From: an uncultured Clostridia bacterium
GTDB lineage: Bacteria; Bacillota; Clostridia; Peptostreptococcales; Anaerovoracaceae
Reading direction: 5' to 3'
DNA length: 64,000 nucleotides
Assembly (NCBI GenBank): GCA_934234035.1
Contig: CAKQHH010000004.1
Coordinates: 1-64,000 of the forward strand
Within the stretch, counting starts at the first letter, position 1. Every line of letters begins with the position of its first letter. Below, piece after piece: positions 981-41,762 of this stretch. The notes beneath the pieces are model-generated. The model did no database searches. It had not been told where the DNA came from and saw nothing but the letters and a program-made list of their open reading frames with translations. Made by a program: the position numbers and the translations under genes.

Positions 981-1031
981 ATCCTTATTAGGCACGAACA
1001 ATCCCTATATCTAAGCGGTGTGGTGAAGGAT

Positions 1032-2603
1032 ATGAATGTAACGATAAAGGATATAATGAAATTACCCTCTATGAGGGAGGCAACGATTCTTACGGCACAG
1101 AATTGTACCGAAAAAATAATCTCTTCAATAACGGTTTTTGATAGCAGTGACAAAGAGAAAATTGAAGAAAACAGCACCGATACCATGAAGAGCTATGACT
1201 CGGAGCTAGCGATTACTTCTTTTGCAAATTGCTATGATGATGTTGAGCAGCAATACGAGTTAATCAAAACGTTAAAATCATGTGGCGAGACCGGCATCAT
1301 TGTTTTCTATGTGGGCTATATTTTGCCGGCAATCGATCGGCGATTAATCGATCTTGCCAATGATTTGGATTTTGTAATTATTATGATGCCGGAAGGCCGA
1401 AGAGAACTCCGATACAGCGATGTCATTCAGGAGGTAATGGAACTAATCATAAGCCGCAGGAAAAAAGAAGTGCACTTCGCAAATGATATGATACATAAAA
1501 TCTCTCGGCTTCCCAAAAATAAGCAGAATATCAACTCGGTTGTGGATATTTTAAGAGATAAAATACAGTGTTCCATTTTTATAGTCGATGAATATTTCAA
1601 CATTATAAACGGTGCTGAATGGCCGGTGGACAGGCGATTGCCGATAAAAGACATCATAGCTGCGTATAATTCGAGCAACAACTCGGACGAAGAAATAATC
1701 GGATTGGATGTCGGTTCCACGAAATGTTTTTTTACGAAGGAGAAAATCCGAAGCCGCTTTGACGAGAACATGTACGTTGCAATTATCAAAGAAAGCGAAG
1801 GTTTGTCCTTAGAAATTCGGCAGCAGGCCTGCGAAGTATTAAGCACCTTTATTAATCTGTGGACGGATGAATATGCGAAGGTCGATTACAATCAATTGAT
1901 TAAAAGCATATTGAAAAATGAGCCGTACAAAACGCAGAGAATATGTCAGGTTTTGAATCTGGATATTGCGAGCTTTGATACTATGGTAATCATAACAAAT
2001 GATAATCCGAATCGAAACACTCAGGAAGTACACGACAGCATCGTTGTTCTGGATGAACTGAACGCAAAATATATTAGCGGCAGATACAACGATGAATACA
2101 TCGTATTCATGAAATACAGCACCGATGCATTAAATGCCATGACGGAAAACAGCAGCAACATATTTACTGTTTTTACGGATGTGCATTTAAAATATGATAC
2201 GGCGGAAGTCAAGGCAAAGCACGAAGTGTTTTTGGAGCATATTGAGGATGTAAGAAAAATACATGTCACGAAGAAGTGCTTTAGCTACAATGAAATCATC
2301 GTAGCGAAAGAATGCAGTGACATAATAAATATCGGTGAGGATGAAATAAACAAAGCGCTGTCACCGATTAACAGATTGATCGAAAAAAAGAATACGGAAT
2401 TGATCAACACTTTGTCCGTTTTTGTTCTGGATTGTGACCACAGTGTTTCCAAAACGGCCGATCGTCTATTCCTGCACAAAAACACCGTGAAGTATCGCCT
2501 GAAGCAGATCGAGGAAATCTTACATATTCGTTTGGATAAGATACTGGATATATGTCTAATATACAATTCCTTAATAATATTAAGACTTCTGGAAAGTAAA
2601 TAA
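1032..2603 (+). CDS. PucR-family transcriptional regulator
   Basis: This 523-residue protein has the PucR layout. The N-terminal PucR sensor domain (residues 1 to about 120) begins MNVTIKDIMKLP, and the C-terminal PucR-type HTH is seen in VSKTADRLFLHKNTVKYRL close to the end. PucR proteins usually activate purine, allantoin or other N-compound catabolic genes. The start is set at ATG 1032 because it matches the usual beginning of the family; in-frame GTG codons at 1020 and 1023 lie upstream and would add four residues. The DUF917-permease-aminopeptidase genes follow on the same strand after a terminator-like hairpin, so this is the probable local regulator. The effector cannot be read from sequence. 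Confidence 0.9.
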   Translation: MNVTIKDIMKLPSMREATILTAQNCTEKIISSITVFDSSDKEKIEENSTDTMKSYDSELAITSFANCYDDVEQQYELIKTLKSCGETGIIVFYVGYILPAIDRRLIDLANDLDFVIIMMPEGRRELRYSDVIQEVMELIISRRKKEVHFANDMIHKISRLPKNKQNINSVVDILRDKIQCSIFIVDEYFNIINGAEWPVDRRLPIKDIIAAYNSSNNSDEEIIGLDVGSTKCFFTKEKIRSRFDENMYVAIIKESEGLSLEIRQQACEVLSTFINLWTDEYAKVDYNQLIKSILKNEPYKTQRICQVLNLDIASFDTMVIITNDNPNRNTQEVHDSIVVLDELNAKYISGRYNDEYIVFMKYSTDALNAMTENSSNIFTVFTDVHLKYDTAEVKAKHEVFLEHIEDVRKIHVTKKCFSYNEIIVAKECSDIINIGEDEINKALSPINRLIEKKNTELINTLSVFVLDCDHSVSKTADRLFLHKNTVKYRLKQIEEILHIRLDKILDICLIYNSLIILRLLESK

Positions 2604-2611
2604 CCGTTCCG

Positions 2612-2656
2612 AATAGCAACGCTTGGCAGATGTTACAAAAAAGCGTTGCTATTTTC
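2612..2656 (+). terminator. Intrinsic terminator after the PucR gene
   Basis: AATAGCAACGCTT at 2612-2624 pairs perfectly with AAGCGTTGCTATT at 2641-2653, followed by a short T run. It separates the regulator from the operon starting at 2753. Confidence 0.75.
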
Positions 2657-2752
2657 GTGCTTTGGGATAATTACATGAAAATATAAAAATGCTACTATAC
2701 CCCTAACTTAAAAATCTTATTTTTCATCAGATTATTAAATGGAGGTATGAAA

Positions 2753-3865
2753 ATGAGCAGAGTACTGAAGAAGCAGGACATTATTGAAATTCTGTACGGA
2801 GCAACATTACTGGGAGCAGGCGGCGGCGGTTCCTTGCAGTACGGCCTGGACATGGTTGAAAACTACGAAAAAGAAAAGAAGAATATAGATATCGAGCTTT
2901 TGGACATTGATGAAATCAACGACGATGAATATGCTGCCATGGTTGCTTGCCTGGGATCTCCGGTGGCAATGCTGGAAGAAGGCCTGCCAATGTTCGGACC
3001 GGAAGCAGTGAATGCTTTCAGAGCATATCAGAAAGCGCTGAAGCTGGAAAACAAGGAAGTGAAGTATCTGTATTCCGGCGAAATGGGCGGATACAACACT
3101 TTTGTACCGATGCTGGTATCGATTCTGTCCGGCGACGAAGCATCTGAAAGGATTAAATTCATTGACGTTGACGGAAACGGAAGAGCGGTTCCTTCATTGG
3201 ATTGTACCCTCACCGATTTGAGAGGTCTTCAGCCGTATCCTCTGGGATTGGGAAATTGGACCGGTGATGAAATCATCGCATTGCCGACCGACAACAAAGC
3301 GGGCGAAGTAATTGCCAGACAGCTGTGCATGGCATATGACATGAGAATCGGTTTTGCCACATGGGGCTTGAATAAAGAAGACATGAAGACGAAAGGCGCA
3401 GAAGGTTATCTGACATATGCACAGAAAATCGGTAAAGCACTGCTCTCTGCTTTTGAAAATAAGACCGATCTGCTGGAAGAACTTAAGAAAGTGATGGAAG
3501 TCAGAGAATTCTGTCGCGGCAAGATTGAAAAGGTTGACCTCAAACAGGTCGGTGGATTCGATTGCGGCGTTACCGTAGTGAAAGATGAAAACGGAAAAGA
3601 ATACTACGTTGAGTTCAAGAACGAGAACCTGGTTCTTAGAGACGAAAGCGGAAAGTCGTATATTACCGCACCGGATATCATCAGCATGGTAGACCTGTCG
3701 ACCATGATACCTTTAACCAACGCAGATACTAAAGAAGGAATGGATGTTCTGGTTCTTATGGCTCCGGTTGAAGAAAAGTGGTGGAGAGAAGACTGCAAGG
3801 CTTATCTCGGATGGATGGAAGAACTGAGAAACATTGGCTTCGAGGGAGATCAGATTAGATACTAA
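2753..3865 (+). CDS. DUF917 domain protein
   Basis: The 370-residue product matches the DUF917 family, whose best studied member is a S-methyl-thiohydantoin desulfurase; DUF917 genes are often found with hydantoinase-type or nucleobase permease genes. The N-terminal glycine-rich stretch LLGAGGGGSLQYGL (near residues 22-35) is characteristic. The start is placed at ATG 2753 because GGAGG at 2741-2745 is 7 nt upstream; the ATG at 2747 would be too close. The NCS1 permease begins 13 bp after the stop with its own ribosome binding site, so the genes are co-transcribed. The precise substrate is unknown, but a heterocyclic nitrogen compound is the natural inference. Confidence 0.85.
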   Translation: MSRVLKKQDIIEILYGATLLGAGGGGSLQYGLDMVENYEKEKKNIDIELLDIDEINDDEYAAMVACLGSPVAMLEEGLPMFGPEAVNAFRAYQKALKLENKEVKYLYSGEMGGYNTFVPMLVSILSGDEASERIKFIDVDGNGRAVPSLDCTLTDLRGLQPYPLGLGNWTGDEIIALPTDNKAGEVIARQLCMAYDMRIGFATWGLNKEDMKTKGAEGYLTYAQKIGKALLSAFENKTDLLEELKKVMEVREFCRGKIEKVDLKQVGGFDCGVTVVKDENGKEYYVEFKNENLVLRDESGKSYITAPDIISMVDLSTMIPLTNADTKEGMDVLVLMAPVEEKWWREDCKAYLGWMEELRNIGFEGDQIRY

Positions 3866-3878
3866 CGGAGGAACTGAA

Positions 3879-5168
3879 ATGAGTGCTAATAAAACCGGCG
3901 GAGTAGAAACTACTACTTTAAGCAAAGTTCCGGAAAGTGAAAAGAAAAGTTGGTACTCAATCGCCTTCATTTGGGCCGGAAATGTAATATGTGTTCCGGC
4001 CCTCATGATCGGCGGCAGCGTCAGTGCCGGCTTAGATTTCAAACATGCTGTTATATCCATGTTTATCGGCTTTGGAATCGTCTGCTGCTATATGGTGCTG
4101 CTGGGTGCGCAGTCCGCGCAGCTGGGTGTACCGTCTACGGTAGCGATGTCTCAAGCATTTGGCGACAGAGGCGCCGGCATTGCAATATCAACGATTATTG
4201 CAGTGGGAATGACCGGATGGTTCGCCATGCAGACCGGCGTATGTGCAAGTTCATTCTGCATGATTATGAATGAATTCATGGGAATCACTTTCCCGCTGTG
4301 GCTTGCAACCATTCTGTGGGGCTCCGTAATGCTGATAACGGCGGTGGTAGGTATCCGATTTATCGATATCCTGAATAAAATCTCGGTACCGACACTGCTT
4401 GTATTTCTGGTGTACGGTGTCTGGACAATTCTTTCCGGCAAAGGTGCTGTTGTAAAATTATTGAGCTATCAGCCTGAAACACCGTCGCCGATGCTGGTGG
4501 GTATTACGCTTTCGGTAGGTGCGATGGCGACCGGCGCGATCATCTCCGGAGACTATACCAGATATTGCAAAACAGGAAAACAGGCAGGAATCGCATGTGT
4601 AACAGGTGTTATTCCGGCAGGTGTCGGCGCACTGGTTTGCGGCACGCTGTTGGCCATTTGCTCCGGAAGCCACGATATTACCGTTATGTTTGCGGACATC
4701 GGATTGCCGATCATCGGATTGATTGTTTTAATACTGGCCACATGGACAACAAACACCGGAAATGCCTATTCTTCGGGAATTGCAGTAGTAAATATTTTTA
4801 AACTGGATGACGATAAAAGATTCCTGGCTACGATAATCTGTGGAGTAGTCGGCATCATCCTTTCCCTCAGCGGAATCATTAATCTGTTTAATGCGTTCCT
4901 GACATTGATCGGCTACTTTGTGCCGCCGGTTGCTGGTGCTACTATAGCGGACTATTGGATTCTGGGAAGAGGAAAACCGGAAAACTGGCATTCCATCGAA
5001 GGCGTAAACTGGATCGGAATTATCGCATGGCTGTGCGGAACGGCCGTTGCGTACTTCTTCCCGACGCTGTTCATCCCGACTATTAACGGTATTGTAGTAT
5101 CCGGAGTGGTCTATATCGTACTGGCAAAAGTCGTAAAAAACAAGAAAATCAACAAACTCGCAGCTTAA
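3879..5168 (+). CDS. NCS1-family nucleobase permease (CodB-like)
   Basis: A 429-residue integral membrane protein with about twelve hydrophobic segments. It resembles the nucleobase:cation symporter-1 family (cytosine, purine and hydantoin transporters): an early SIAFIWAGNVICVPALMIGG segment, then repeated glycine-rich helices, GDYTRYCKTGKQ near the middle, and a late PPVAGATIADYWILGRG motif, a hallmark of CodB-like members. The start ATG 3879 is supported by GGAGG at 3867-3871 (7-nt spacing); the in-frame ATG at 3834 lies inside the preceding gene. It sits between DUF917 and an M29-type peptidase, so it probably imports the compound degraded by this operon. Confidence 0.9.
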   Translation: MSANKTGGVETTTLSKVPESEKKSWYSIAFIWAGNVICVPALMIGGSVSAGLDFKHAVISMFIGFGIVCCYMVLLGAQSAQLGVPSTVAMSQAFGDRGAGIAISTIIAVGMTGWFAMQTGVCASSFCMIMNEFMGITFPLWLATILWGSVMLITAVVGIRFIDILNKISVPTLLVFLVYGVWTILSGKGAVVKLLSYQPETPSPMLVGITLSVGAMATGAIISGDYTRYCKTGKQAGIACVTGVIPAGVGALVCGTLLAICSGSHDITVMFADIGLPIIGLIVLILATWTTNTGNAYSSGIAVVNIFKLDDDKRFLATIICGVVGIILSLSGIINLFNAFLTLIGYFVPPVAGATIADYWILGRGKPENWHSIEGVNWIGIIAWLCGTAVAYFFPTLFIPTINGIVVSGVVYIVLAKVVKNKKINKLAA

Positions 5169-5187
5169 CAAAGAAAGTAGGGATACC

Positions 5188-6135
5188 ATGAATTCTAATA
5201 TTAAATTAGCAGCAGAAACAGTGGTAAAAGACTGTATGCAAGTTCGAGAAAATGAAAATCTATTGATTGTTACAGATGCAGGAAAAAGGAAATTAGCTGA
5301 TGATGTTGCTGATGCTATTAGAAATATGGGAGTCAACGCAGTTGTTGTTGAAAGTGTACAGCCGCCGGATAACCAAATGCCTGCATTATGTGCAGCGGCT
5401 CTAGAAAAAGCAGATGTCGCCCTATTCATCACATCCGGCTCATTCTCTCATACGAAAGAACGAGCCGCGGCAAATGAGCGCGGATGCCGAATTGCATCCA
5501 TGCCTACCATCACAGAAGAAATTATGGAAACCACATTAACAGCGGACTTCAACGAAGTGGAACGAATCGGAAACATTCTGGCCGATAAGCTGTCTAAATG
5601 TGAACGCATCCATATTACAACACCTCTCGGAACTGACCTAACCTTGTTTTGTGATGGCAGAAACGGAATTGCCGATACCGGTAAATTAGGCGAACGCGGG
5701 GCATTCGGAAATCTTCCGGCCGGAGAAGCGATGGTCGCACCAATCGAAACGAAAGGCGACGGCGTATTAGTTGTAGACGGCGTCATCGTGGGGATGGATG
5801 CCTTAACGGATCCGTTGACAATTGAATTTGAAGACGGAAGAATTAAAAATGTTCTGGGCACACAAGCAGCAGATTTCTTGAACTTCGTAAACAGATTTGA
5901 TGACAATGCTAAAAACGTATGTGAATTCGGAATAGGAACGAACGAGAAATGCCACCTGATGGGTAATCCGTTGGTGGATGAAAAAATATACGGTACTATC
6001 CATGTAGCATGCGGCAACAATCTGTTCATGGGCGGAGAGCAAGACAGTAATATGCACTATGATATGATTGTGACCAAACCGACTGTTTATCTGGACGATG
6101 AGTGCATTATCCAAGACGGGGTGCATGTCTACTAA
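5188..6135 (+). CDS. M29-type aminopeptidase / NicX-like metalloenzyme
   Basis: The 315-residue protein resembles the C-terminal half and metal site of thermophilic aminopeptidases (M29, AmpS/aminopeptidase T). The conserved run is FGIGTNEKCH, then DEKIYGTIHVACG and GGEQDSNMHYDMIV, which carry the Glu/His/Asp metal ligands of the family. 2,5-dihydroxypyridine dioxygenase (NicX) is a homologous but different activity, so a ring-opening or amide-hydrolysing role on an N-heterocycle is possible in this context. At 315 residues it is shorter than typical M29 enzymes (about 400). It lies 19 bp after the permease and ends the operon. Confidence 0.75.
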   Translation: MNSNIKLAAETVVKDCMQVRENENLLIVTDAGKRKLADDVADAIRNMGVNAVVVESVQPPDNQMPALCAAALEKADVALFITSGSFSHTKERAAANERGCRIASMPTITEEIMETTLTADFNEVERIGNILADKLSKCERIHITTPLGTDLTLFCDGRNGIADTGKLGERGAFGNLPAGEAMVAPIETKGDGVLVVDGVIVGMDALTDPLTIEFEDGRIKNVLGTQAADFLNFVNRFDDNAKNVCEFGIGTNEKCHLMGNPLVDEKIYGTIHVACGNNLFMGGEQDSNMHYDMIVTKPTVYLDDECIIQDGVHVY

Positions 6136-8240: not shown

Positions 8241-9365
8241 TTATCTATACCTAATCTGAAAATTAAGCCTAAAATAATAATCTTCACCTTCTTTATAAAC
8301 TCTTGCATAATTGCCATGATTTTCACTTGTTGCGGGCCATTCAAAATAACAATGTTTAAAAAGATAGGACTTGAAGCCTTCGGATTCTAAAGCTAAATTT
8401 GCAGTGACATTTCCTTTTTCGTCGACTGCTATAAACCCACCATTTACTTGGCTTTTTCCATCCCAAAGGGTTCCCGCAGTAAGTCCGCAATATGATGCAT
8501 ATAAAAAGGATTTCATCATGTACTGATACTTTTCTTTTGGACGCGTCAGACTGCAAGGGTTATGCTCAATAACAATATCCACCATATCTTCTACATCACG
8601 TGCCGTTTCATCAGTTAAAAAATGTGTTCTTAGTATATAGTCTATCGTATCGCCTAATCTAGGATTCAATATATCCAGATTCTCTTCAAAGGTTTTACAA
8701 CCGGCCCTTGCAGCAACAGGGAATCCAACAAACTCAAATTCGCATCCGTTTTCAAGCAAAGCTCTACAGCGATCGGCAACAGCTGTATGATTCTTTTCAT
8801 CAACCATTGAATTTATTTCGTCCATTAAATCATCATTCATATTAGATAATTTATAAACTGTTGCTGAGTTCTTTCCGGTATTAAAAAGAGTTGGATCTTT
8901 TCCAAACTTTGATTTGATTGAAAACCCAATATGTCTCCTCACAACTGAAGTTTGAGTATCTTCTATTGAAATAAAAATATCACTTTTATCTATGCTTTTA
9001 GCTTTTATAGCTGTAAGCTGGATTTTTTCAAAAAACTTTTCAATATCATTGCTTACGTTAAATGAGCTGCCACTTGCGTTAAGTATTTCCGCTTTAAGTT
9101 TATCTGCATAATATAAGAATTCATGCGCCGGTACGGATGCAATTTCCTTATCATCAATTTTAATATCAACTATTGCATCGGCCGATAAACCATATTCCAC
9201 CCTTTGGTCAACGCGTTCCCTTGTTTCATAACGTATTACATCTAATACATTTAACCATTTGTCCGGAATAACGTTTCCTTCGTCGTCAGCAAGATTAAGT
9301 TTTCCGTCTCCCAGCACTCTTAGTGCAACATACGGTTCACTCCATTCACCTTTATTAGCCCTCAT
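8241..9365 (-). CDS. HpaII-family type II restriction endonuclease
   Basis: The 374-residue protein resembles the RE_HpaII family. The N-terminus NKGEWSEPYVALRVLGDGKL matches the usual opening of the family (a Glu-containing NKGEWSE motif), and the middle has GFSIKSKFGKDPTLFNTGK, matching the FSIKS...TL.NAGK segment typical of HpaII-like enzymes. HpaII cuts CCGG. The gene overlaps the end of the methyltransferase gene by 11 bp, so the two are translationally coupled. Length is close to HpaII itself (about 358 residues). CCGG as target is inferred from family and operon structure; it has not been shown here. Confidence 0.85.
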   Translation of the reverse strand: MRANKGEWSEPYVALRVLGDGKLNLADDEGNVIPDKWLNVLDVIRYETRERVDQRVEYGLSADAIVDIKIDDKEIASVPAHEFLYYADKLKAEILNASGSSFNVSNDIEKFFEKIQLTAIKAKSIDKSDIFISIEDTQTSVVRRHIGFSIKSKFGKDPTLFNTGKNSATVYKLSNMNDDLMDEINSMVDEKNHTAVADRCRALLENGCEFEFVGFPVAARAGCKTFEENLDILNPRLGDTIDYILRTHFLTDETARDVEDMVDIVIEHNPCSLTRPKEKYQYMMKSFLYASYCGLTAGTLWDGKSQVNGGFIAVDEKGNVTANLALESEGFKSYLFKHCYFEWPATSENHGNYARVYKEGEDYYFRLNFQIRYR

Positions 9366-10365
9366 TATCGAGTATCTCCTTTATCTTCAATGCTATCGCC
9401 TCAATTACATTTACTGTAACACTATTGCCAAACTGTTTGTATAAGTGGGTATCAGCGGAATTAAGTTTATATGTATCCGGAAAGCCCTGAAGTCTTGCCC
9501 ACTCCCGCGGTGTCATTTTCCTGATATCATCTTTATTTATGCTTCCTTTTATGTGTGTTACCGGAATCATGCTATGATCTCTATGATCAATTATCAAGTT
9601 TCTTTCCCTTCCCATTCCACCGCACACTATTGCTCCGGCCTGACCATCAAGATCTCGGATTTCATATCCAAATCCATTTCCTTTGTTTTTATGACGTTCT
9701 TTGTGAGCAATTAAAGTATTTACATATACATCACTTAAATAGTATTTAGGTGATATCGGTGCATCGTCAAGAATATCGCGAATACATGTCTTATCGTCTG
9801 TACCGATAGGAAACGAAAATTCAGCACTATTTATATCATTTCTGAATGCAACAATATAAATTCGTTCACGATTTTGCGGAACTCCAAAATCCTTGCTATT
9901 TAGCACTTTTGAATAAACAGTATACCCAATTTGTTCAAAAGCTTTTGTTATCACTTTAAACGTTCGACCACGGTCATGGATGGTAAGGCCCTTTACATTC
10001 TCACAAAAGATTACCTTTGGTTTGTGATAATCGCATATTCTAACCACATCTTGAAAAAGCGTTCCTCGGCATAACCCTTTATAATCATCATCAAACCCCA
10101 TACGCTTTCCGGCTAAACTAAATGCTTGACAAGGAAATCCCGCAAGACATATATCAAAAGTAGGTATGTTTTGTTCATTAATTCTAGTGATGTCTCCCGC
10201 AATTTCAAATTCATCAGCAAAATTATCTCGGTATGTTTTCTGGGCATGTTCATCCCATTCCGATACAAAAACTGTTTCAATTTCATTCTTAAAAGCATTA
10301 TCAAATCCCAGTCTGATTCCTCCGATTCCGGCAAATAAATCAATCGACTTTAATACTTTACTCAT
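9355..10365 (-). CDS. DNA (cytosine-5)-methyltransferase, HpaII-like
   Basis: All main C5-methyltransferase motifs are present in order: motif I DLFAGIGGIRLGF (residues 10-21), motif IV GFPCQAFSLAG with catalytic Cys79, motif VI ENVKG (122-126), motif VIII QNRERIYIVAF, then LQGFP (IX) and GNSVTVNVIEAIA (X). The start is taken at ATG 10365, which overlaps the Vsr stop codon as ATGA; the two upstream in-frame ATGs lie inside the Vsr gene. The 336-residue product should protect the host by methylating the site cut by the neighbouring endonuclease. The recognition region lies between motifs VIII and IX. Confidence 0.92.
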   Translation of the reverse strand: MSKVLKSIDLFAGIGGIRLGFDNAFKNEIETVFVSEWDEHAQKTYRDNFADEFEIAGDITRINEQNIPTFDICLAGFPCQAFSLAGKRMGFDDDYKGLCRGTLFQDVVRICDYHKPKVIFCENVKGLTIHDRGRTFKVITKAFEQIGYTVYSKVLNSKDFGVPQNRERIYIVAFRNDINSAEFSFPIGTDDKTCIRDILDDAPISPKYYLSDVYVNTLIAHKERHKNKGNGFGYEIRDLDGQAGAIVCGGMGRERNLIIDHRDHSMIPVTHIKGSINKDDIRKMTPREWARLQGFPDTYKLNSADTHLYKQFGNSVTVNVIEAIALKIKEILDNEG

Positions 10366-10775
10366 CTTTCTTTCCATATCCTTTCTACTAAATCTGCACA
10401 TTCTGCAAGATTCTTTTTAATTTCTTTTCCCCAAAAGCGCAAAACTATCCATCCTTCAGATTGTAATTTTTGTGTAACTTCTTTATCTCTTTGCATATTC
10501 CTTTCTATCTTTGAAATCCAAAACTCTGTGTTTGATTTGAAATCATTCTTTCTGTGTTCCCAATCATAACCATGCCAGAATTCGCTGTCACAAAACACGG
10601 CAATTTTCTTTCCAATGAAAGCAATGTCAGGTTTGCCTTCAATGCTTTTTACATTCTTTCGATACCGCAATCCTCTTCGCCACAGTTCCTTTTGAAGAAG
10701 CACCTCTATTTCAGAGCCCTTACTTTTTACTTGCTTCATATTGTATGAAATTTGCTCCGGAGTTTTTTTAGTCAT
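10362..10775 (-). CDS. Vsr-type very short patch repair endonuclease
   Basis: A 137-residue protein of the Vsr family: it carries FCDSEFWHGYDWEHRK, with the Asp and His residues of the active site, followed by TEFWISKIERNMQRD and LQSEGWIVLRFW, all standard Vsr segments. Vsr enzymes nick at T:G mismatches that arise when 5-methylcytosine deaminates, so linkage to a C5-methyltransferase is expected. The start ATG 10775 is chosen because GGAGG at 10782-10786 lies 6 nt upstream, within the end of the XRE gene; the upstream ATG at 10793 has no such site. It overlaps the XRE gene by 8 bp and the methyltransferase by 4 bp. Confidence 0.92.
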   Translation of the reverse strand: MTKKTPEQISYNMKQVKSKGSEIEVLLQKELWRRGLRYRKNVKSIEGKPDIAFIGKKIAVFCDSEFWHGYDWEHRKNDFKSNTEFWISKIERNMQRDKEVTQKLQSEGWIVLRFWGKEIKKNLAECADLVERIWKER

Positions 10776-23554: not shown

Positions 23555-23656
23555 AAATCCGGTATCTGATGTTTTTGCTTTGATTTTCCACCTCCATGCA
23601 TCAACCGGAAATTCGTGGTTGATGCATGCGGTGCGTTTTTCGGGGCTCATGCATCA
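23555..23656. repeat. 102-bp direct repeat, copy 1
   Basis: This copy runs from AAATCCGGTATCTGATG to GGGGCTCATGCATCA and is nearly identical to 23777-23878, 222 bp downstream. It contains a perfect hairpin CATGCATCAACC (23595-23606) with GGTTGATGCATG (23617-23628). Confidence 0.75.
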
Positions 23657-23776
23657 ACTCTTGCATCCTCGTCTTCTTCGAGTTAATGTTTCCGACCCGG
23701 TTTTCAAGGCTCGTGCATCAGATTCCGGAAAAGCTTGCTTGAGTTCCGGTCCACACTCTCTCATGCTTCGGCCAGA

Positions 23777-23878
23777 AAATCCGGTATCTGATGTTTTTGC
23801 TTTGCTTTTCACCCTCCATGCATCAACCTGCAAATCGGAGTTGATGCATACGGTGCGTTTTCCGGGGCTCATGCATCA
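23777..23878. repeat. 102-bp direct repeat, copy 2
   Basis: The second copy, with a few substitutions. Its internal hairpin is ATGCATCAAC (23818-23827) with GTTGATGCAT (23840-23849), so the stem has been retained through compensating or tolerated changes. Confidence 0.75.
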
Positions 23879-26595: not shown

Positions 26596-26658
26596 TTTTA
26601 CCTCCTTACAAAAATAGGTTTCACTTTTCCAAAGTTCCCGGCGCCCAGGCCGCATGGC

Positions 26659-27088
26659 AAAATGTTGGCGCCCCCTGACGAAGGAACAAGCCTTTGCCGG
26701 CTGCAATGCGCCAATCCGGACTCCCGCTGCCCGGGCCCCATGGCAAAATGTTGGCGCCCCTTGACGAAGAAACAAGCCTTTGCCGGCTGCAGGGCGCCAA
26801 CCCGGACTCCTGCTACCCGGGCCTCATTGCAAAATGTTGGCGCCTCTCGACGAAGAAACAAGCCTTTGCCGGCTGCTAGGCGCCAACTCGACCGCCCGCT
26901 ACTCGGGCCCCGTCTCTAAATGTTGGCGCCTCTCGACGAAGGAACAAGCCTTTGCCGGCTGCTAGGCGCCAACTCCAACTCCCGCTGCCCGGGCCCCGTC
27001 GCAAAATGTTGGCGCCCCTTGACGAAGAAACAAGCCTTTGCCGGCTGCCAGGCGCCAACTCCAACACCTGCTACCCGGGCCCCGTCGC
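26659..27088. repeat. Tandem array, five copies of an 86-bp unit
   Basis: Copies start at 26659, 26745, 26831, 26917 and 27003, each exactly 86 bp apart, with a partial copy before (26637-26658). Each unit includes TTGGCGCC and GGCGCCAA (a stem with the loop TTGACGAAGAAACAAGCC...), and a CCCGGGCCCC block. The units differ at single bases, with no spacer-like variation, so this is not a CRISPR array. It lies between the DUF2520 terminator and the MFS gene, within the presumed MFS leader. The array has no coding potential (the period is not a multiple of three). Confidence 0.9.
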
Positions 27089-27110
27089 AAAAGTGAACAC
27101 CAAAAAAAGA

Positions 27111-27142
27111 AAAGCGCAAGTCCGTGTTTGGACTTACGCTTT
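27111..27142 (-). terminator. Terminator of the DUF2520 gene
   Basis: AAAGCGCAAGTCC (27111-27123) pairs with GGACTTACGCTTT (27130-27142) with one mismatch. Read on the minus strand it is followed by a T-rich run, downstream of the stop at 27212. Confidence 0.75.
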
Positions 27143-27211
27143 TTGCTACTCAACTCCGTTATTATATCACTGTAAATTTTGAAAAGTCAAAGATTTTTTC
27201 CGCTCCGGCTC

Positions 27212-28060
27212 CTACTCCAGAATCCGCCGGAGCCCGGCGTAATCCCGGTCCGGATTCTTGCGTTCCGCGATGGAAACCAGTACCTCCGAAGCCGCCCGGT
27301 ACAGCGCAGCTTCCGGCCCGTCCCCCAGCACCGAAAGGTGCTTCCGAACCGTTTCCGAATCGCCTCGTTCCACCGGCCCCGTCAGCGCCTGCACCGGGCC
27401 GTCTTCCAGCAGGTGCTTCATATTGCTGAGAGCCAGTGGCGCCAGTGCTTCCCGGGCACCGGCCTCCGTGAAACCGCATTCCTGCAAGAGATTCAGGCCG
27501 GTATCCACCAGGGCGCACACCAGGTTGCTGGAGAAGACGCAGGCCGCGTGGTACTTCACCTTGGCATCGCCGGAAATCTCCTGCACCCTCGGGCCCAGGG
27601 ATTCCAGTGTTTTTACCCAGAAATCCAGGGGACCCGTACCCTCGACGCAGAAAAAGGCCGACCTCAGCTCTTTGTAGGACGCCCATTTGTCGCTCACCGG
27701 GAACAGGGGATGGATGGAATACCCCGTCGCCCCCAAAGCCTCAATGCCCGGAAAGGCCTCTTCGGCGGACAAAGCCCCGCTGCAATGACAGATTTTTTTG
27801 CCCCGGAGATCTAACCCGCGGAGGGACCCGTAGACCGCCTGAATCTGATTGTCCGGCACGGTGAGGAAAATCGCGTCGCTGGCTTCCGCCACCGCCTGGG
27901 CACTGTCAAAACACCTGCTTTCGGTGAATTCCGCGGCCGCCTGTGCCGCCTCCCGATGCCGATTGTAGTAGCCGGTCACCGGGAGCCCGCCTTCGCGGAA
28001 AAATTTTCCCAGGGAGACCCCCACCTTACCGGCCCCAATAAAACCGATTTTCGTCTGCAT
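27212..28060 (-). CDS. Rossmann-like/DUF2520 protein
   Basis: The 282-residue protein has an N-terminal Rossmann fold with GFIGAGKVGVSLGKFFREGG and a following GYYNRHREAA, matching the NAD(P)-binding type domain of Rossmann-like/DUF2520 proteins. The C-terminal DUF2520 domain is helical, seen in AACVFSSNLVCALVDTGLNL. These proteins are dehydrogenase-like, of unknown substrate (often linked to coenzyme or amino-acid metabolism). The gene lies upstream of a GNAT gene on the same strand (8-bp gap), with PatB-like and ABC genes further on. Confidence 0.85.
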   Translation of the reverse strand: MQTKIGFIGAGKVGVSLGKFFREGGLPVTGYYNRHREAAQAAAEFTESRCFDSAQAVAEASDAIFLTVPDNQIQAVYGSLRGLDLRGKKICHCSGALSAEEAFPGIEALGATGYSIHPLFPVSDKWASYKELRSAFFCVEGTGPLDFWVKTLESLGPRVQEISGDAKVKYHAACVFSSNLVCALVDTGLNLLQECGFTEAGAREALAPLALSNMKHLLEDGPVQALTGPVERGDSETVRKHLSVLGDGPEAALYRAASEVLVSIAERKNPDRDYAGLRRILE

Positions 28061-28069
28061 TTTGCCCCC

Positions 28070-28594
28070 TTATCCCAGATATTTCTCCAGGAGCACCATG
28101 CTCACGTTGGACAGGCCCTGCAGCTCCGTGCCCACGATGCCCACTTCCGCGTATCCCAGCTTCCGGTACATCGCCCGGGCCACCGAGTTCCATTCCAGCG
28201 TATCCATTCGGCAGGCTTTGCAGCCCGTCTCCCGGGCGTAGTCTTCATAAAAACAAACGAACGCCTTGCCGTAGCCTTTTTTCGAGGCGGCCGGGGAGAC
28301 CACCAGGGTGTGGAGAACGCACACCTGCTCTTTCGGCAGTTCGTGCACCCACCGGCCTTGGGCATAGGCCTCCGCCTGAGCTTGGTTGATGATGCCCGCA
28401 CTCACAATTCGGCCTTCATCTTCCAGCACGAAGAGCTCGCCCCGTGCCAAGGCTCCCTCGGCGGTGGCCCGCGTCGGATAGACTCCTCGAATCCAGCCGG
28501 TCATCAATCCGCCCTTCTCCTCTGCCGTATGAATCTCATTGTAAATCTCTTCCACCGCGGAAATGTCCGCCGCGCTTGCTTTTCGGAATACCAT
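28070..28594 (-). CDS. GNAT family N-acetyltransferase
   Basis: A 174-residue GNAT protein. Key features are CVLHTLVVSPAASKKGYGKA, with the SKKGYGKA acetyl-CoA loop, and CRMDTLEWNSVARAMYRKLG near the C-terminus. The N-terminus VFRKASAADISAVEEIYNEI is typical. The substrate is unknown. Confidence 0.85.
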   Translation of the reverse strand: MVFRKASAADISAVEEIYNEIHTAEEKGGLMTGWIRGVYPTRATAEGALARGELFVLEDEGRIVSAGIINQAQAEAYAQGRWVHELPKEQVCVLHTLVVSPAASKKGYGKAFVCFYEDYARETGCKACRMDTLEWNSVARAMYRKLGYAEVGIVGTELQGLSNVSMVLLEKYLG

Positions 28595-28629
28595 AATTCG
28601 CTCCTAACATTAAAGATAAGAGCATTATA

Positions 28630-29865
28630 TCACAGATGAAGGGCGGAAATCCCCCGAATCAGGCCGGCTGCAATTCGCTCCGCATTCTCCGGGCTCGTGG
28701 CCAGATTCAGGCGGATGAAATTCCTGTAATCCTCGCCGCCGAACCATTCGCCGAAATCCGGTGCGACACCGCATCGCTGCAGGACAAAATCTTCCGTTGT
28801 CAGACCTTCCGTTTCCCACGCGTTCGCATAGGCGCTCAGATCCACCCACTGAAGGTACGTCCCTTCCAAAGGCGACAGCACCGCCTTCGGTGCCCCTTCC
28901 GCCAGCCGCTCCTTCAGTAGCGCGGCGTTGTCCCGAATCAGGCCGCGCAGCTCCTGCAGCCATTCACGGCCCTGTTCGTAGGCGGCGGTGTACGAAATGT
29001 ATCCCATATTGCCGCCGTCCTTGATGTGGATTTTCGTGGTAAAAGAGTCGAATTCTTCCCGCAGTTTCTCATCCGGAATGATGACGAAAGAATTCTGCAT
29101 TCCCGCCAGGTTGAAGGTTTTGGAGGCGGAGGTCAGGGTAATGAGAAGGGAATCGTATTCTCCCGGTTCCCCGGCCGTCGCCGCGGCAATGTTCTCCCGG
29201 AACGGATTTTCTCCGCCGCACTCCGCTTCCTGAACCACCAGATCCTGATGGATTTCATCGGCGATGACAACGACTCCGTGGTCCCGGCAAATGTCCAGCA
29301 CCCGCTTGATTTCCTCCCGGCGCCACACTCTTCCCACCGGATTGTGAGGGGAACACATGATGTGCACCTTCGCCCCGGATTCCACAATCGTCCGCTCAAA
29401 AGCATCGTAATCAATCCGGTACCGGCCGCCCTCGTTAATCAGGGGCACCGGGCACACGGTGCGGTCCGTTTCCCGAATCGCATTTCGGAACGGGTAGTAC
29501 ACCGGCTCCAGAATCACCACTCCGTCGCCCGGCTTCGTGAGAATCTCAAGCAGCCAGTAGATGCTCTGCACCACGCCCGGAGCGAACCGAATCCAATCTT
29601 CCTTCACCGCATATCCGTGGTACTTCTTTTCCCAGTCCATAAAAGCACGATACAACTCCCCGGGTGCCCGGTAGTATCCGTATACATTGTGGGCCACCGC
29701 GTCCGCCAAGGCTTGCTGCACGCAGGCCGGCGCTTCGATGTCCATGTCCGCCACCCAGGCCGGAATCAGGTCGTCCCTTCCGAAATTCTCCTGCAATCCA
29801 TCCCACTTGTCGCAGTTCGTGCCCCTGCGCTCCGCAAATTTCAGATGCTTGTATTTCACCATCAC
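28630..29865 (-). CDS. PatB/MalY-type aminotransferase, probable cystathionine beta-lyase
   Basis: The 411-residue enzyme is a fold-type I PLP enzyme with SASKTFNLAGMQ, where the lysine forms the Schiff base, and HNPVGRVWRREEI and ADEIHQDLV as supporting motifs. The N-terminal GTNCDKWDGLQ matches the PatB/MalY subgroup, which cleaves C-S bonds in cystathionine and related compounds. The gene sits beside a polar amino-acid ABC transporter (29881-32628), pointing to sulfur amino-acid uptake and catabolism. The start is the second of two adjacent ATG codons at 29865/29862; either may be used. Confidence 0.88.
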   Translation of the reverse strand: MMVKYKHLKFAERRGTNCDKWDGLQENFGRDDLIPAWVADMDIEAPACVQQALADAVAHNVYGYYRAPGELYRAFMDWEKKYHGYAVKEDWIRFAPGVVQSIYWLLEILTKPGDGVVILEPVYYPFRNAIRETDRTVCPVPLINEGGRYRIDYDAFERTIVESGAKVHIMCSPHNPVGRVWRREEIKRVLDICRDHGVVVIADEIHQDLVVQEAECGGENPFRENIAAATAGEPGEYDSLLITLTSASKTFNLAGMQNSFVIIPDEKLREEFDSFTTKIHIKDGGNMGYISYTAAYEQGREWLQELRGLIRDNAALLKERLAEGAPKAVLSPLEGTYLQWVDLSAYANAWETEGLTTEDFVLQRCGVAPDFGEWFGGEDYRNFIRLNLATSPENAERIAAGLIRGISALHL

Positions 29866-29880
29866 TTTGAGCCTCCTTTT

Positions 29881-31053
29881 CTAAAAGTCGATTTTCATTA
29901 CTTCCGGGAAGCAAGTTTTCTTGTACTGGCTGCAGGTCGGACAGCTGCTGGTCAGCGGGGAATCCTCGTATGGCACCGTGTCGAAACCCAGTTTTTTGTA
30001 AAAGCCCGGAACCCGTCCCATCAGCCACATCCGATGACCGTCCCGACGCGCGATTTCTTCCATACTTTCTTTTACCAGTTTGGTCCCAAAATCCTGCCCA
30101 CGGTATTCCTCTTCCACGGCCAGATAGTTCAGGTGGAACACCCCGTCGTGATGGGTGATGGTCGCTGCGCCCACCAGCTCCTTCGTGTGCTTGTGAATCA
30201 GCTCCAGACTGGTCAGGAAACCTTCCGGCTTCGGGTCGTCCAAGGAACATTCCAGGCCGGATTTCTGATACAGCGGCAGGAGCTCCTCGAAGCGGTCCGT
30301 GTAGACGATTTTGTATTCGCTCCGCAGTTCCTTGCGAAGGAAGGCCACGGTGCGCGGGTTTTTCGGGTGGTCCAGAATCTCTTCCGGCGTTCCCTCCTCC
30401 ACGATGTTTCCGTTTTCCATAAAAATAATTCGGTCGGACACGTCTCGCGCGAACTCCATCTCGTGGGTGACGATGATCATCGTGTAGTGTTCTTTTGCCA
30501 GATTTTCAATAACGTCCAGCACCTCGTTGACCCATTCCGGGTCCAGGGCGGAGGTGGGCTCGTCCAGCAGCATCACGTTGGGCTGAATGGCCATGGAACG
30601 AGCAATCGCCACCCGCTGCTGCTGACCGCCGGACAGGGTAATCGGATACTTGTCGGAAAACTCATCCATACCGACTGTTTTTAGGTTCCGGTGGGCGATC
30701 TCCTCCGCCTCCTTCGGCGGGATTTTTTTGGCCGTCACCAGAGGCTCCATCACGTTGTGCAGCACGTTCTTGTTGGCGAAGAGGTTGTAGTTCTGGAAAA
30801 TCATGGCGGAATGCTTCCGCAGCTCGAAAATCTCCTTGTCCGTGTGATTCTTGGCGTCCACCGTGATATCGTCGATGGTAATCTTGCCCTCATCCGGCAC
30901 CTCCAGGTAATTCATGCACCGCAGAAGGGTGGATTTACCGGTTCCGGAGGGGCCGATGACAGACAGCACCTCGCCGGTGTTCACGGTGAGATTCACTTTG
31001 GAGAGGACGTGCAGGTCCCCGAAACTCTTGCTTAAATTCTCAATTTTTACCAT
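29881..31053 (-). CDS. Amino-acid ABC transporter ATPase fused to a GNAT domain
   Basis: Residues 1-240 are a complete polar amino-acid ABC ATPase: Walker [10 protein letters not shown] (34-42), Q-loop FQN at Gln87, signature LSGGQ (140-144), Walker B LLDEP (162-166) and H-loop THE at His197. Residues about 245-390 form a GNAT domain: [20 protein letters not shown] (308-327) with RGQDFG as the acetyl-CoA loop, then [12 protein letters not shown] (346-357), and an ending [15 protein letters not shown]ys cluster (371-385). The usual GlnQ/TcyC-type ATPase is about 240-250 residues, so the C-terminal half is an extension. The permease ends 5 bp upstream and the lipoprotein gene precedes it, so the whole transporter is encoded in one operon. 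A single continuous frame of 390 codons with no stop or shift supports a real fusion. Confidence 0.88.
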
Positions 31054-31058
31054 AGTCC

Positions 31059-31724
31059 CTACCTCTCATAACCAACGGTCATCTTCTGTTCCACCGTTTT
31101 CTCCACGCGTTCCAGAATCAGAATGATTGCCCAATACATCAGCATCAGCACCACGTACGCCGTAAAATAATCATACGTCACGGCCGCTTTCAGCTTCGCC
31201 GCCGCCGTCATTTCCACGACGCCAACGGTGAACGCCATGGAGGTTCCTTTTACCGTATCCACCAAATTGTTGAACAGCGACGGAATCGCCACCCGGGCCG
31301 CCTGGGGCAAAATAATCCGGAACATGGCCTGCCGGGAGGTCATGCCGTGGGCCAGCGCCGCTTCCCGCTGTCCGTCCGGAACGGAGAGCAGTGCGCCCCG
31401 CACCACTTCCTTCATGTACGCCGCGGAATTCAGCGTCAAACCGATGATGCATACCGCAAAAGGCGAGATGTCCCGCAAAGACGGAACGATGGACGGGATG
31501 CCGAAATACAACAGAAACAGCTGCGGAATCAGCGGCGTCCCTCGAAAGAAGGACACGTATACCCCGCAGATTTTGTCCAGCACCGGCACCTTGTTGTAAT
31601 CAATCACCGCCAGCAAAATCGCCAGTGCCAGCGCCAGAATAAAAGAAATCGCCGTCAAGGCCAGGGTCGTCGGAATGGCTTCCGTAATCCTTAAAAATAT
31701 CGATGGTGTGGCTGCAAAATCCAT
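31059..31724 (-). CDS. Polar amino-acid ABC transporter permease
   Basis: The 221-residue membrane protein has five hydrophobic segments and the EAA loop [20 protein letters not shown], characteristic of amino-acid ABC permeases of the GlnP/HisM class. The start at ATG 31724 follows a GGAG site (AAAGGAGAAAGT). It is the only permease gene in the locus, so it would form a homodimer with the single ATPase. Confidence 0.88.
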
Positions 31725-31750
31725 ACTTTCTCCTTTACAAATGAACAACA

Positions 31751-31780
31751 GGCTGCACAGATGCGAATGATCCGTGCAGC
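31751..31780 (-). promoter_or_regulatory. Intercistronic hairpin in the ABC operon
   Basis: GGCTGCAC (31751-31758) pairs with GTGCAGC (31774-31780). It lies between the substrate-binding protein gene (stop 31804) and the permease gene (start 31724), where such hairpins commonly stabilise the upstream message to give excess binding protein. Confidence 0.55.
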
Positions 31781-31803
31781 TTGCCTAAAAACATATTCGT
31801 ATC

Positions 31804-32628
31804 TTACTTGGTGTAGGACATCAGGGTTTCCGCGCCTTCCGGCTTCTCGGAGATATCCTGATCGAACCACTTCTCAGAGAGCTTCTTGATTGTACCGTCT
31901 TCTCTCATCTCGTCGATTGCCTTGGATACTTCTTCGCTCAGCGCCTTTCCTTCATCGGTGTCCGCAAACGGGTACACGTTGGTTTCCAGAATGTCGGTCT
32001 TTCCAAGAATCTTCAGGTTCTTGGTTTCCTTTACCGTGAGGATGGAGGAAGTTTCCGCTCTCGGCCAGAGGTCGCAGCGGCCCATTGCCACGTCGGTAAC
32101 GGACATGCCATCGTAGTAAGTCTTCTTCAACTTGAAGCCGTACTTCTTTTCCAGTGCGTTTACGATGAGTTCATCACTGGTGTTGGACTCGCAGGAAATG
32201 CTCATTCCGTCCTTGATATCCTCAAAAGAATTCAGCTCGTTGTTGTCCGCTCTGGAAATCAGGCAGTATCTGTTGTACGCGTACGGAGTGGACAGGTTGT
32301 ACTTCTCCGCTCTCTCCGGTGTCTCGGAAATCTGCTCTGCCACGGAGTCGATTCTGCCGTCGCCCAGCATCGTCCACATGCCGTCCCAATCCATCACCTT
32401 GAACTCAATCTTATGGCCGGTTCTCTTTCCGATTTCCTGCCACATATCATAGTCAAAGCCCTTCAGCTTTCCATCATCCTTCTTCACAATCCAGCCCGGT
32501 GTCGTCGCTTCGCATCCGATGGTCAGCGTCTTCTTGTCGGAGCTGTCGCTTCCGCCGCATCCGCTCAGTGCAAATACCATCACCAGGGTCAGGATGCATC
32601 CCATCAAAACAGTTAACTTTTTCTTCAT
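31804..32628 (-). CDS. Amino-acid ABC transporter substrate-binding lipoprotein
   Basis: The 274-residue protein has a lipoprotein signal peptide with a lipobox LSGC near residue 24 (MKKKLTVLMGCILTLVMVFA...), then a type 3 periplasmic-binding fold: LTIGCEATTPGWIVKKDDGK, FDYDMWQEIGKRTGHKIEFK, GRIDSVAEQISETPERAEK. It is the first gene of the operon with the permease and the fused ATPase. The neighbouring PatB-type lyase suggests cystine or a related sulfur amino acid as the ligand; this is inferred. Confidence 0.88.
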   Translation of the reverse strand: MKKKLTVLMGCILTLVMVFALSGCGGSDSSDKKTLTIGCEATTPGWIVKKDDGKLKGFDYDMWQEIGKRTGHKIEFKVMDWDGMWTMLGDGRIDSVAEQISETPERAEKYNLSTPYAYNRYCLISRADNNELNSFEDIKDGMSISCESNTSDELIVNALEKKYGFKLKKTYYDGMSVTDVAMGRCDLWPRAETSSILTVKETKNLKILGKTDILETNVYPFADTDEGKALSEEVSKAIDEMREDGTIKKLSEKWFDQDISEKPEGAETLMSYTK

Positions 32629-41407: not shown

Positions 41408-41762
41408 TGGTGGAGATGGTGGGAGTCGAACCCACGTCCAAAAATATTTCCGAAGAACTTTCTCCGAGCGCAGTCAGTGCTTTGTCATTCGCAGAATCCG
41501 CCGTGACGCTGACACACTACGGAACTGCTATCCTGTAAGTCCGCTGAAATACCAGGAGCTCTCCCAGCGGTTTCCTGCATTCATGACACCGGATTTCAAG
41601 CCTGCAGGTGAGCCTGAAGCGGCGCGCGGGGCTGAACTATGCAGCCAGTGCGAAATTGTTGTTATTTTTAGCGTTTATATTTAACGGCCCCTTTTTACGT
41701 GGACTGGGCGCCACGGCTCGCTTATCCTTGTTCCACATTCCTGTCGAAACCATTACATCCCC
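41408..41762 (-). ncRNA. ssrA: Transfer-messenger RNA (tmRNA)
   Basis: The 355-nt RNA has the tRNA-like 3' end GGGTTCGACTCCCACC... with an encoded CCA (41408-41410) and a 5' end GGGGATG (41756-41762) that pairs with the 3' acceptor strand CATCTCC through seven bp with one G-T wobble. It contains the conserved 5' element AATGGTTTCGACAGG. The tag frame (41672 down to 41637) encodes AKNNNNFALAA and a TAG stop. It rescues stalled ribosomes with SmpB, whose gene lies just upstream. Confidence 0.95.

Follow-up and report, generated by a model that had tools for sequence, protein, structure and literature searches.

Amino-acid importers, accessory domains and acetyltransferases

The importer described here is closest to TcyJLN and the other polar amino-acid importers (GlnQ, ArtP, HisP; structures 4yms, 2olj, and 1b0u). 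It shares with them the fold and motifs of the ATPase, and its operon likewise encodes a family 3 binding protein and a HEQRo-type permease. Two differences can be noted: the solved ATPase chains of this group stop at 240–263 residues, whereas the present ATPase continues into a GNAT acetyltransferase domain, and the importer stays below the equivalog cut-offs of the cystine models, which sets it apart from TcyJLN. Another single chain with both kinds of domain is COG2401, which we take to be an archaeal ABC-type ATPase with a predicted acetyltransferase domain that is not part of an amino-acid importer. A search of the open-licence literature by its name gave no paper on it among the best 10 of 20 matches.

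Accessory domains on transporters are known to control uptake, the cases given in the available part of the source being binding domains and not enzyme folds (PMC10710835). MetN and ModC each bear such a domain behind the ATPase, at the C-terminal end; it is the site of cargo feedback and stops transport on cargo binding. It occupies the same place as the GNAT domain described below but has another fold (PMC10710835, available part). Acetyltransferases are tied to the breakdown of S-modified cysteines in the B. subtilis clusters scm (formerly yxe), ytn, and yha. There, breakdown of S-(2-succino)cysteine begins with an acetyltransferase, and LacA was termed a pressure relief valve by the same authors (PMC12757645, available part). 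In these clusters the acetyltransferase is a separate protein accompanied by a monooxygenase and a deacetylase, two enzymes that the present operon lacks.

An importer ATPase continued by a GNAT domain

The window, i.e. the whole stretch of 64,000 nucleotides that was analysed, comes from an uncultured Clostridia bacterium. The gene of interest is a single open frame of 390 codons on the minus strand, running from an ATG at 31053 to a TAG at 29881 with no internal stop. The initial annotation had given no strand but had described the frame as continuous, with neither stop nor shift, and had read its first 240 residues as a complete ABC ATPase. Both descriptions hold. PF00005 matches residues 17–168 with 121.1 bits (cut-off 25), and Walker A, the Q-loop, LSGGQ, Walker B (VMLLDEP), and the H-loop histidine (H197) are all present. 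No key residue is conserved in fewer than 31 of the 32 fused representatives, with the exception of the final position of LSGGQ, which is more variable. With these five motifs, and with a binding protein (PF00497) and a permease (PF00528) in the operon, the domain has the features of a polar amino-acid importer ATPase. The nearest solved chains in the PDB list are indeed polar amino-acid ATPases, and the lengths of the five best agree with the earlier statement that typical ATPases of this type end early. When the whole fusion was used as a Foldseek query, ABC chains made up all of the best 50 matches.

The C-terminal part had been described as a GNAT fold of about 145 residues with a cysteine-rich end, and this is borne out by PF13508 at residues 291–357 (40.9 bits, cut-off 27), by PF00583 at residues 271–357 (40.7 bits, cut-off 20.7), and by three cysteines in the tail. 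The GNAT fold is also found in the predicted model and in the structure lists. None of the 11 Pfam hits of the fused chain is a C2/NIL regulatory domain of the MetN type. AlphaFold2 predicts two well-formed domains for the whole fusion (mean pLDDT 90.0), whose mutual placement is unsure given a whole-chain pTM of 0.66; the GNAT domain modelled alone reaches a pLDDT of 89.2 and a pTM of 0.84. Only a short gap separates the last ABC helix (residues 233–242) from the first GNAT strand, which starts at residue 247 in the predicted model. The GC content of the two halves is 54.5% (ABC) and 54.4% (GNAT). A frameshift or an assembly error joining two genes, which would make the fusion an artefact, can be set aside with near certainty, since full-length two-domain chains recur in many separate clusters (98%, 97%, 77%, 70%, and 69% identity). 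Table 1 lists the features of the locus.

Table 1. Features of the fused gene and of the surrounding likely operon (window coordinates)
Feature	Coordinates	Strand	Evidence
ABC–GNAT fusion gene, 390 aa	29881..31053	-	Open frame; Pfam; same architecture in 98/120 relatives among matches listed
ABC ATPase domain, residues 1–241, TcyN/GlnQ/ArtP type	30331..31053	-	PF00005; best NCBIfam PRK11264 TcyN; closest PDB 4yms
GNAT domain, residues about 247–390	29884..30315	-	
Cysteine tail C371-x2-C374-x6-C381 ... M386	29896..29943	-	Three Cys in 32/32 fused
ABC permease	31059..31748	-	PF00528; best NCBIfam cystine permease PRK15100
Family 3 solute-binding protein	31804..32628	-	PF00497
Stem-loop between binding-protein and permease genes	31752..31780	-	Terminator-like site
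PatB-family C-S lyase	28630..29865	-	TIGR04350 369 bits, cut-off 340
Second GNAT protein, separate, without cysteine tail	28070..28594	-	PF00583 49.9 bits
Rossmann/DUF2520 protein, last gene of likely operon	27212..28060	-	PF10728 109.5 bits
Hairpin of 14 pairs with T-rich tail, terminator-like, downstream of last gene	27110..27143	-	

The operon and its likely cargo

Six genes follow one another on the same strand (27212–32628) in the order binding protein, permease, fusion, PatB lyase, second GNAT, and DUF2520 protein, with gaps of 55, 5, 15, 35, and 9 bases, and we infer that they form one transcript. A single site such as the stem-loop within the run is weak evidence, because the region has 19 terminator-like sites where 10.3 are expected. 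The listed TTG start of the permease probably lies upstream of the true start, and the start of the PatB-family lyase is preceded by AAGGAGG. In the test for importer partners, TIGR01726 scored 81.3 bits (cut-off 42.2). The second GNAT gene directly follows the PatB gene, and the likely operon thus has two acetyltransferase-type domains. No FMN monooxygenase or deacetylase was found among the six genes, so the known route for S-modified cysteines is not encoded in this operon.

The best models for the ATPase and the permease are cystine models, all scores being below the equivalog cut-offs: PRK11264 (TcyN) gives 293 bits for the ATPase (cut-off 406), PRK15100 165.1 for the permease (300), and PRK11260 108.7 for the binding protein (312). 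The binding protein scores slightly higher with the Lys/Arg/Orn model TIGR01096 (115.4 bits), also below its cut-off. A search of 349 genomes of one family with the binding protein gave two matches at E <= 1e-40, one of them in a genome (G314) with an unfused relative of the importer, whose ATPase (247 residues), binding protein, and permease are 56%, 43%, and 42% identical to those of the window. All three have cystine models as their best ones, though again with scores under the cut-offs. The start of this unfused ATPase gene is overlapped by another gene (L060, 4659–5753), which best matches the D-cysteine desulfhydrase family (247.9 bits, cut-off 289.4). From the best cystine models, the adjoining PatB-family lyase, which passes its cut-off, and the setting of the unfused relative, the imported cargo is likely a sulfur amino acid, cystine or a related compound. 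This agrees with the initial annotation, which had suggested a sulfur amino acid from the PatB-type neighbour; that neighbour was read at the window locus alone.

Several other features of the window were recorded. Tandem direct repeats with 86-base spacing lie at 26644–26987, just before an MFS transporter gene, where three overlapping 172-base windows show 100%, 88%, and 83% identity; two 102-base direct repeats, 90% identical and 222 bases apart, lie at 23555–23878. At 1020–6135, a PucR-like regulator, named by reading, is followed consecutively by an S-Me-THD-like gene, a cytosine/purine-type permease gene, and an unassigned gene for 315 aa. At 8241–10401, a C-5 cytosine DNA methylase gene is found beside a partner of 374 aa, which we would guess may be a restriction protein. 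A tmRNA gene with the tag AKNNNNFALAA lies at 41408–41762; at the gathering threshold, Rfam found this tmRNA and one tRNA only.

Recurrence and divergence of the fusion

The search for other single chains with both domains, proposed by the initial annotation, was successful. With the whole chain as query, 7997 proteins were scored and 4951 of them reached E <= 1e-60. PF00005 together with a GNAT Pfam domain was present in 98 of the best 120 of these 4951 matches, the other 22 being without GNAT. The GNAT part as query found four fused proteins. Sources of the fusion include Lacrimispora saccharolytica, Clostridium sp. AM29-11AC, Lachnospiraceae bacterium KGMB03038, and Peptoniphilus sp. The architecture is thus already in databases under automatic names; JGI, for instance, calls one fused protein (P0036) "ABC-type polar amino acid transport system ATPase subunit/N-acetylglutamate synthase-like GNAT". 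No study of a fusion between an importer ATPase and a GNAT domain was found among the matches listed in the open-licence literature.

Of 124 proteins kept, 96 are 350–430 aa long. The alignment set was confined to 385–410 aa, with P0099 excluded, and its 89 proteins, the window protein included, were reduced to 32 representatives under 85% identity. The mean pairwise identity among these is 70% for the ABC halves and 47% for the GNAT halves. The identities of the two halves correlate across the 496 pairs from the 32 proteins (r = 0.72), and none of 2000 label shuffles gave so high a value; the correlation rises to r = 0.85 when P0094, which seems chimeric in its ABC half, is left out. In the GNAT tree, the 48 stand-alone sequences cluster together (97/95) to the exclusion of the fused ones, among which P0008, a protein of 147 residues, is nested. 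The fused label needs three changes in this tree, at least two of them forced; this is due to P0008 and to the open base of that part of the tree, whose bootstrap had not yet stabilised. The topology may reflect a single fusion event, P0008 then being the product of a subsequent split or of a wrongly called gene. Fused and unfused sequences are intermixed in the ABC tree, with nine changes, at least five of them forced by well-supported branches. Short contigs are the source of several unfused sequences that seem truncated or chimeric (P0083, P0106, P0111), so this tree yields no count of fusion losses; we think that the mixing comes in part from such sequences.

Fused genes were absent from the matches listed for 349 whole genomes of one family, 391 of the class, and 398 of the phylum. 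Likewise, an ABC motif was found in none of the 84 cysteine-tail frames at 89 loci (repeats of one place included), nor, on a separate look, at two loci missed by the tail pattern (L050 and L051). The absence from the sampled genomes bears weakly on rarity. A mobile or viral setting was considered and rejected, as no relative of the GNAT domain was found in viral contigs or plasmids. With another query, P0039, viral contigs gave no match, and plasmids gave 1931 records at E <= 1e-60, of which one covers at least 80% of P0039.

The GNAT domain and its relatives

The closest relatives of the fused GNAT domain are stand-alone proteins with a C..C......C.P..M tail, found in clostridia and on one contig labelled Aenigmatarchaeota. 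They are unfused and are 52% identical to the window domain in the case of P0008, up to 41% among the matches listed in the 349-genome family search, and up to 37% in named genomes. The Aenigmatarchaeota-labelled sequence (L008, 4064–4519) has a long branch in the GNAT tree. More distant kin are the short N-acetylglutamate synthases (PRK07757/PRK07922, M. tuberculosis ArgA 5yge), with which the fused domain shares the GNAT fold, a related profile, and a cysteine tail that short forms from the Bacillota-type genomes examined also have. The three tail cysteines occur in all 32 fused representatives, in all 48 stand-alone sequences, and in all 22 NAGS-like ones; the latter two sets were selected by the cysteine-tail motif, and conservation there is partly by choice.

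Two positions of the domain deserve comment. The acetyl-CoA loop of the window protein reads R-G-Q-D-F-G, with an Asp in place of the first Gly of the (Arg/Gln)-x-x-Gly-x-(Gly/Ala) pattern. This Gly is absent from 8 of the 32 fused representatives, including all six of the sub-group of the window protein (with P0003, P0004, P0009, P0010, and P0011), and also from 35 of the 48 stand-alone GNATs. Degeneracy of the loop in all relatives had been named by the initial annotation as grounds for refuting its reading. This is not the case, as 24 of the 32 fused representatives have a complete (Gln/Arg)-x-x-Gly-x-Gly loop. The second position is Tyr352, which likely stands at the place of the general acid in GNAT enzymes. 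It is found in 32/32 fused, 2/48 stand-alone, and 0/22 NAGS-like sequences, and also in P0008, which lies outside these sets; 46 of the 48 stand-alone sequences have Phe instead.

Possible roles of the fused GNAT domain

Our main reading, to which we give a probability of roughly 0.4 (0.38), is that the fusion combines an importer ATPase with a GNAT domain that would acetylate the imported amino acid, likely one of the cystine type, whether to process it or as a relief valve. In its favour are the recurrence of the fusion, the parallel divergence of its halves, Tyr352, the mostly complete loop, the cystine-type models, the adjoining PatB gene, the cystine-type setting of the unfused relative, and the B. 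subtilis precedent for acetylation in S-modified cysteine breakdown; against it are the loop of the window protein without its first Gly, the cystine cut-offs that were not reached, a binding protein leaning slightly towards Lys/Arg/Orn, an operon with neither monooxygenase nor deacetylase, the expected competition with PatB, and the unsure placement of the two domains. PatB-type C-S lyases need a free amino group on their substrate, and acetylation would thus compete with PatB, a situation more in keeping with a valve than with one step of a pathway. As two motors serve each importer, two acetyltransferases would sit at its inner mouth. When cargo arrives faster than the lyase uses it, the GNAT domain would N-acetylate it, and the N-acetylated cargo would be out of the reach of PatB, so that toxicity would be limited as by a relief valve. 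A stronger version, which we hold to be improbable, is acetylation-coupled import, in which the cargo would be passed from the channel to the acetyltransferase on its own motor and enter chemically changed.

Nearly as likely as an acetylating role is a regulatory one, in which the domain would bind acetyl-CoA and/or cargo on the cytoplasmic side and thereby slow or license the ATPase, much as the MetN C2 domain responds to methionine. The GNAT domain occupies the end of the ATPase at which inhibitory domains are borne by MetN and ModC. This position fits such a role, as do the short predicted gap between the two domains and the absence of the first loop Gly from a quarter of the fused representatives. 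Yet an invariant Tyr352 and a loop complete in most fused proteins would exceed the needs of a mere sensor, and the available part of PMC10710835 has no acetyl- word, and so offers no GNAT precedent. The GNAT domain might instead be an enzyme unrelated to the cargo, the fusion merely setting its amount and place by the transporter. We consider this unlikely, although the domain has many relatives, which occur in 197 of the 349 genomes at E <= 1e-10 and lie at L002, L003, and L005–L007 among housekeeping genes (in part valS, folC, plsX, rnc, and smc, named by reading), with no ABC importer seen by eye beside them at L001–L008. The parallel divergence of the halves and the rarity of Tyr352 outside the fused set suggest a distinct role for the GNAT domain in the fusion.

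The remaining candidate, an N-acetylglutamate synthase for arginine synthesis borne on a transporter, has some appeal, in that a profile comparison with short NAGS-like proteins gives 99.5% probability over 127 columns with the cysteine tail aligned, ngNAGS and ArgA top the structural list (level with others), and the JGI name of P0036 points the same way. It is nevertheless very improbable. In ngNAGS, Glu353 is the proposed base and Arg316 lies in the glutamate site (PMC4490483, available part). By our matching of positions, which is inferred, the equivalent Glu and the equivalent Arg are each present in 22/22 NAGS-like but 0/32 fused proteins, the latter having Pro (21), Leu (7), or other residues (four proteins) in place of the Arg. 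Moreover, the window protein scores 32.1 with PRK07757 (cut-off 154), as against 226.2 for a short NAGS form from L075. Membership of the NAGS family was rejected on this cut-off and on the missing glutamate-site residues; Tyr rather than Phe at position 352 and the fusion to an ATPase are further differences from the short synthases.

Implications

We regard the fusion as the motor of an amino-acid importer that bears an unusual C-terminal domain of enzyme type. If acetylation-coupled import were true, it would amount to a group translocation like that of the sugar PTS, but using acetyl-CoA, with a built-in relief valve. More generally, a GNAT domain kept with an importer motor over wide divergence would genetically fix a link between the uptake and the modification of an amino acid. 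The fusion also offers a handle on the widespread family of cysteine-tailed GNATs, and the domain pair is ready for asking whether an importer modifies its cargo or answers to acetyl-CoA.
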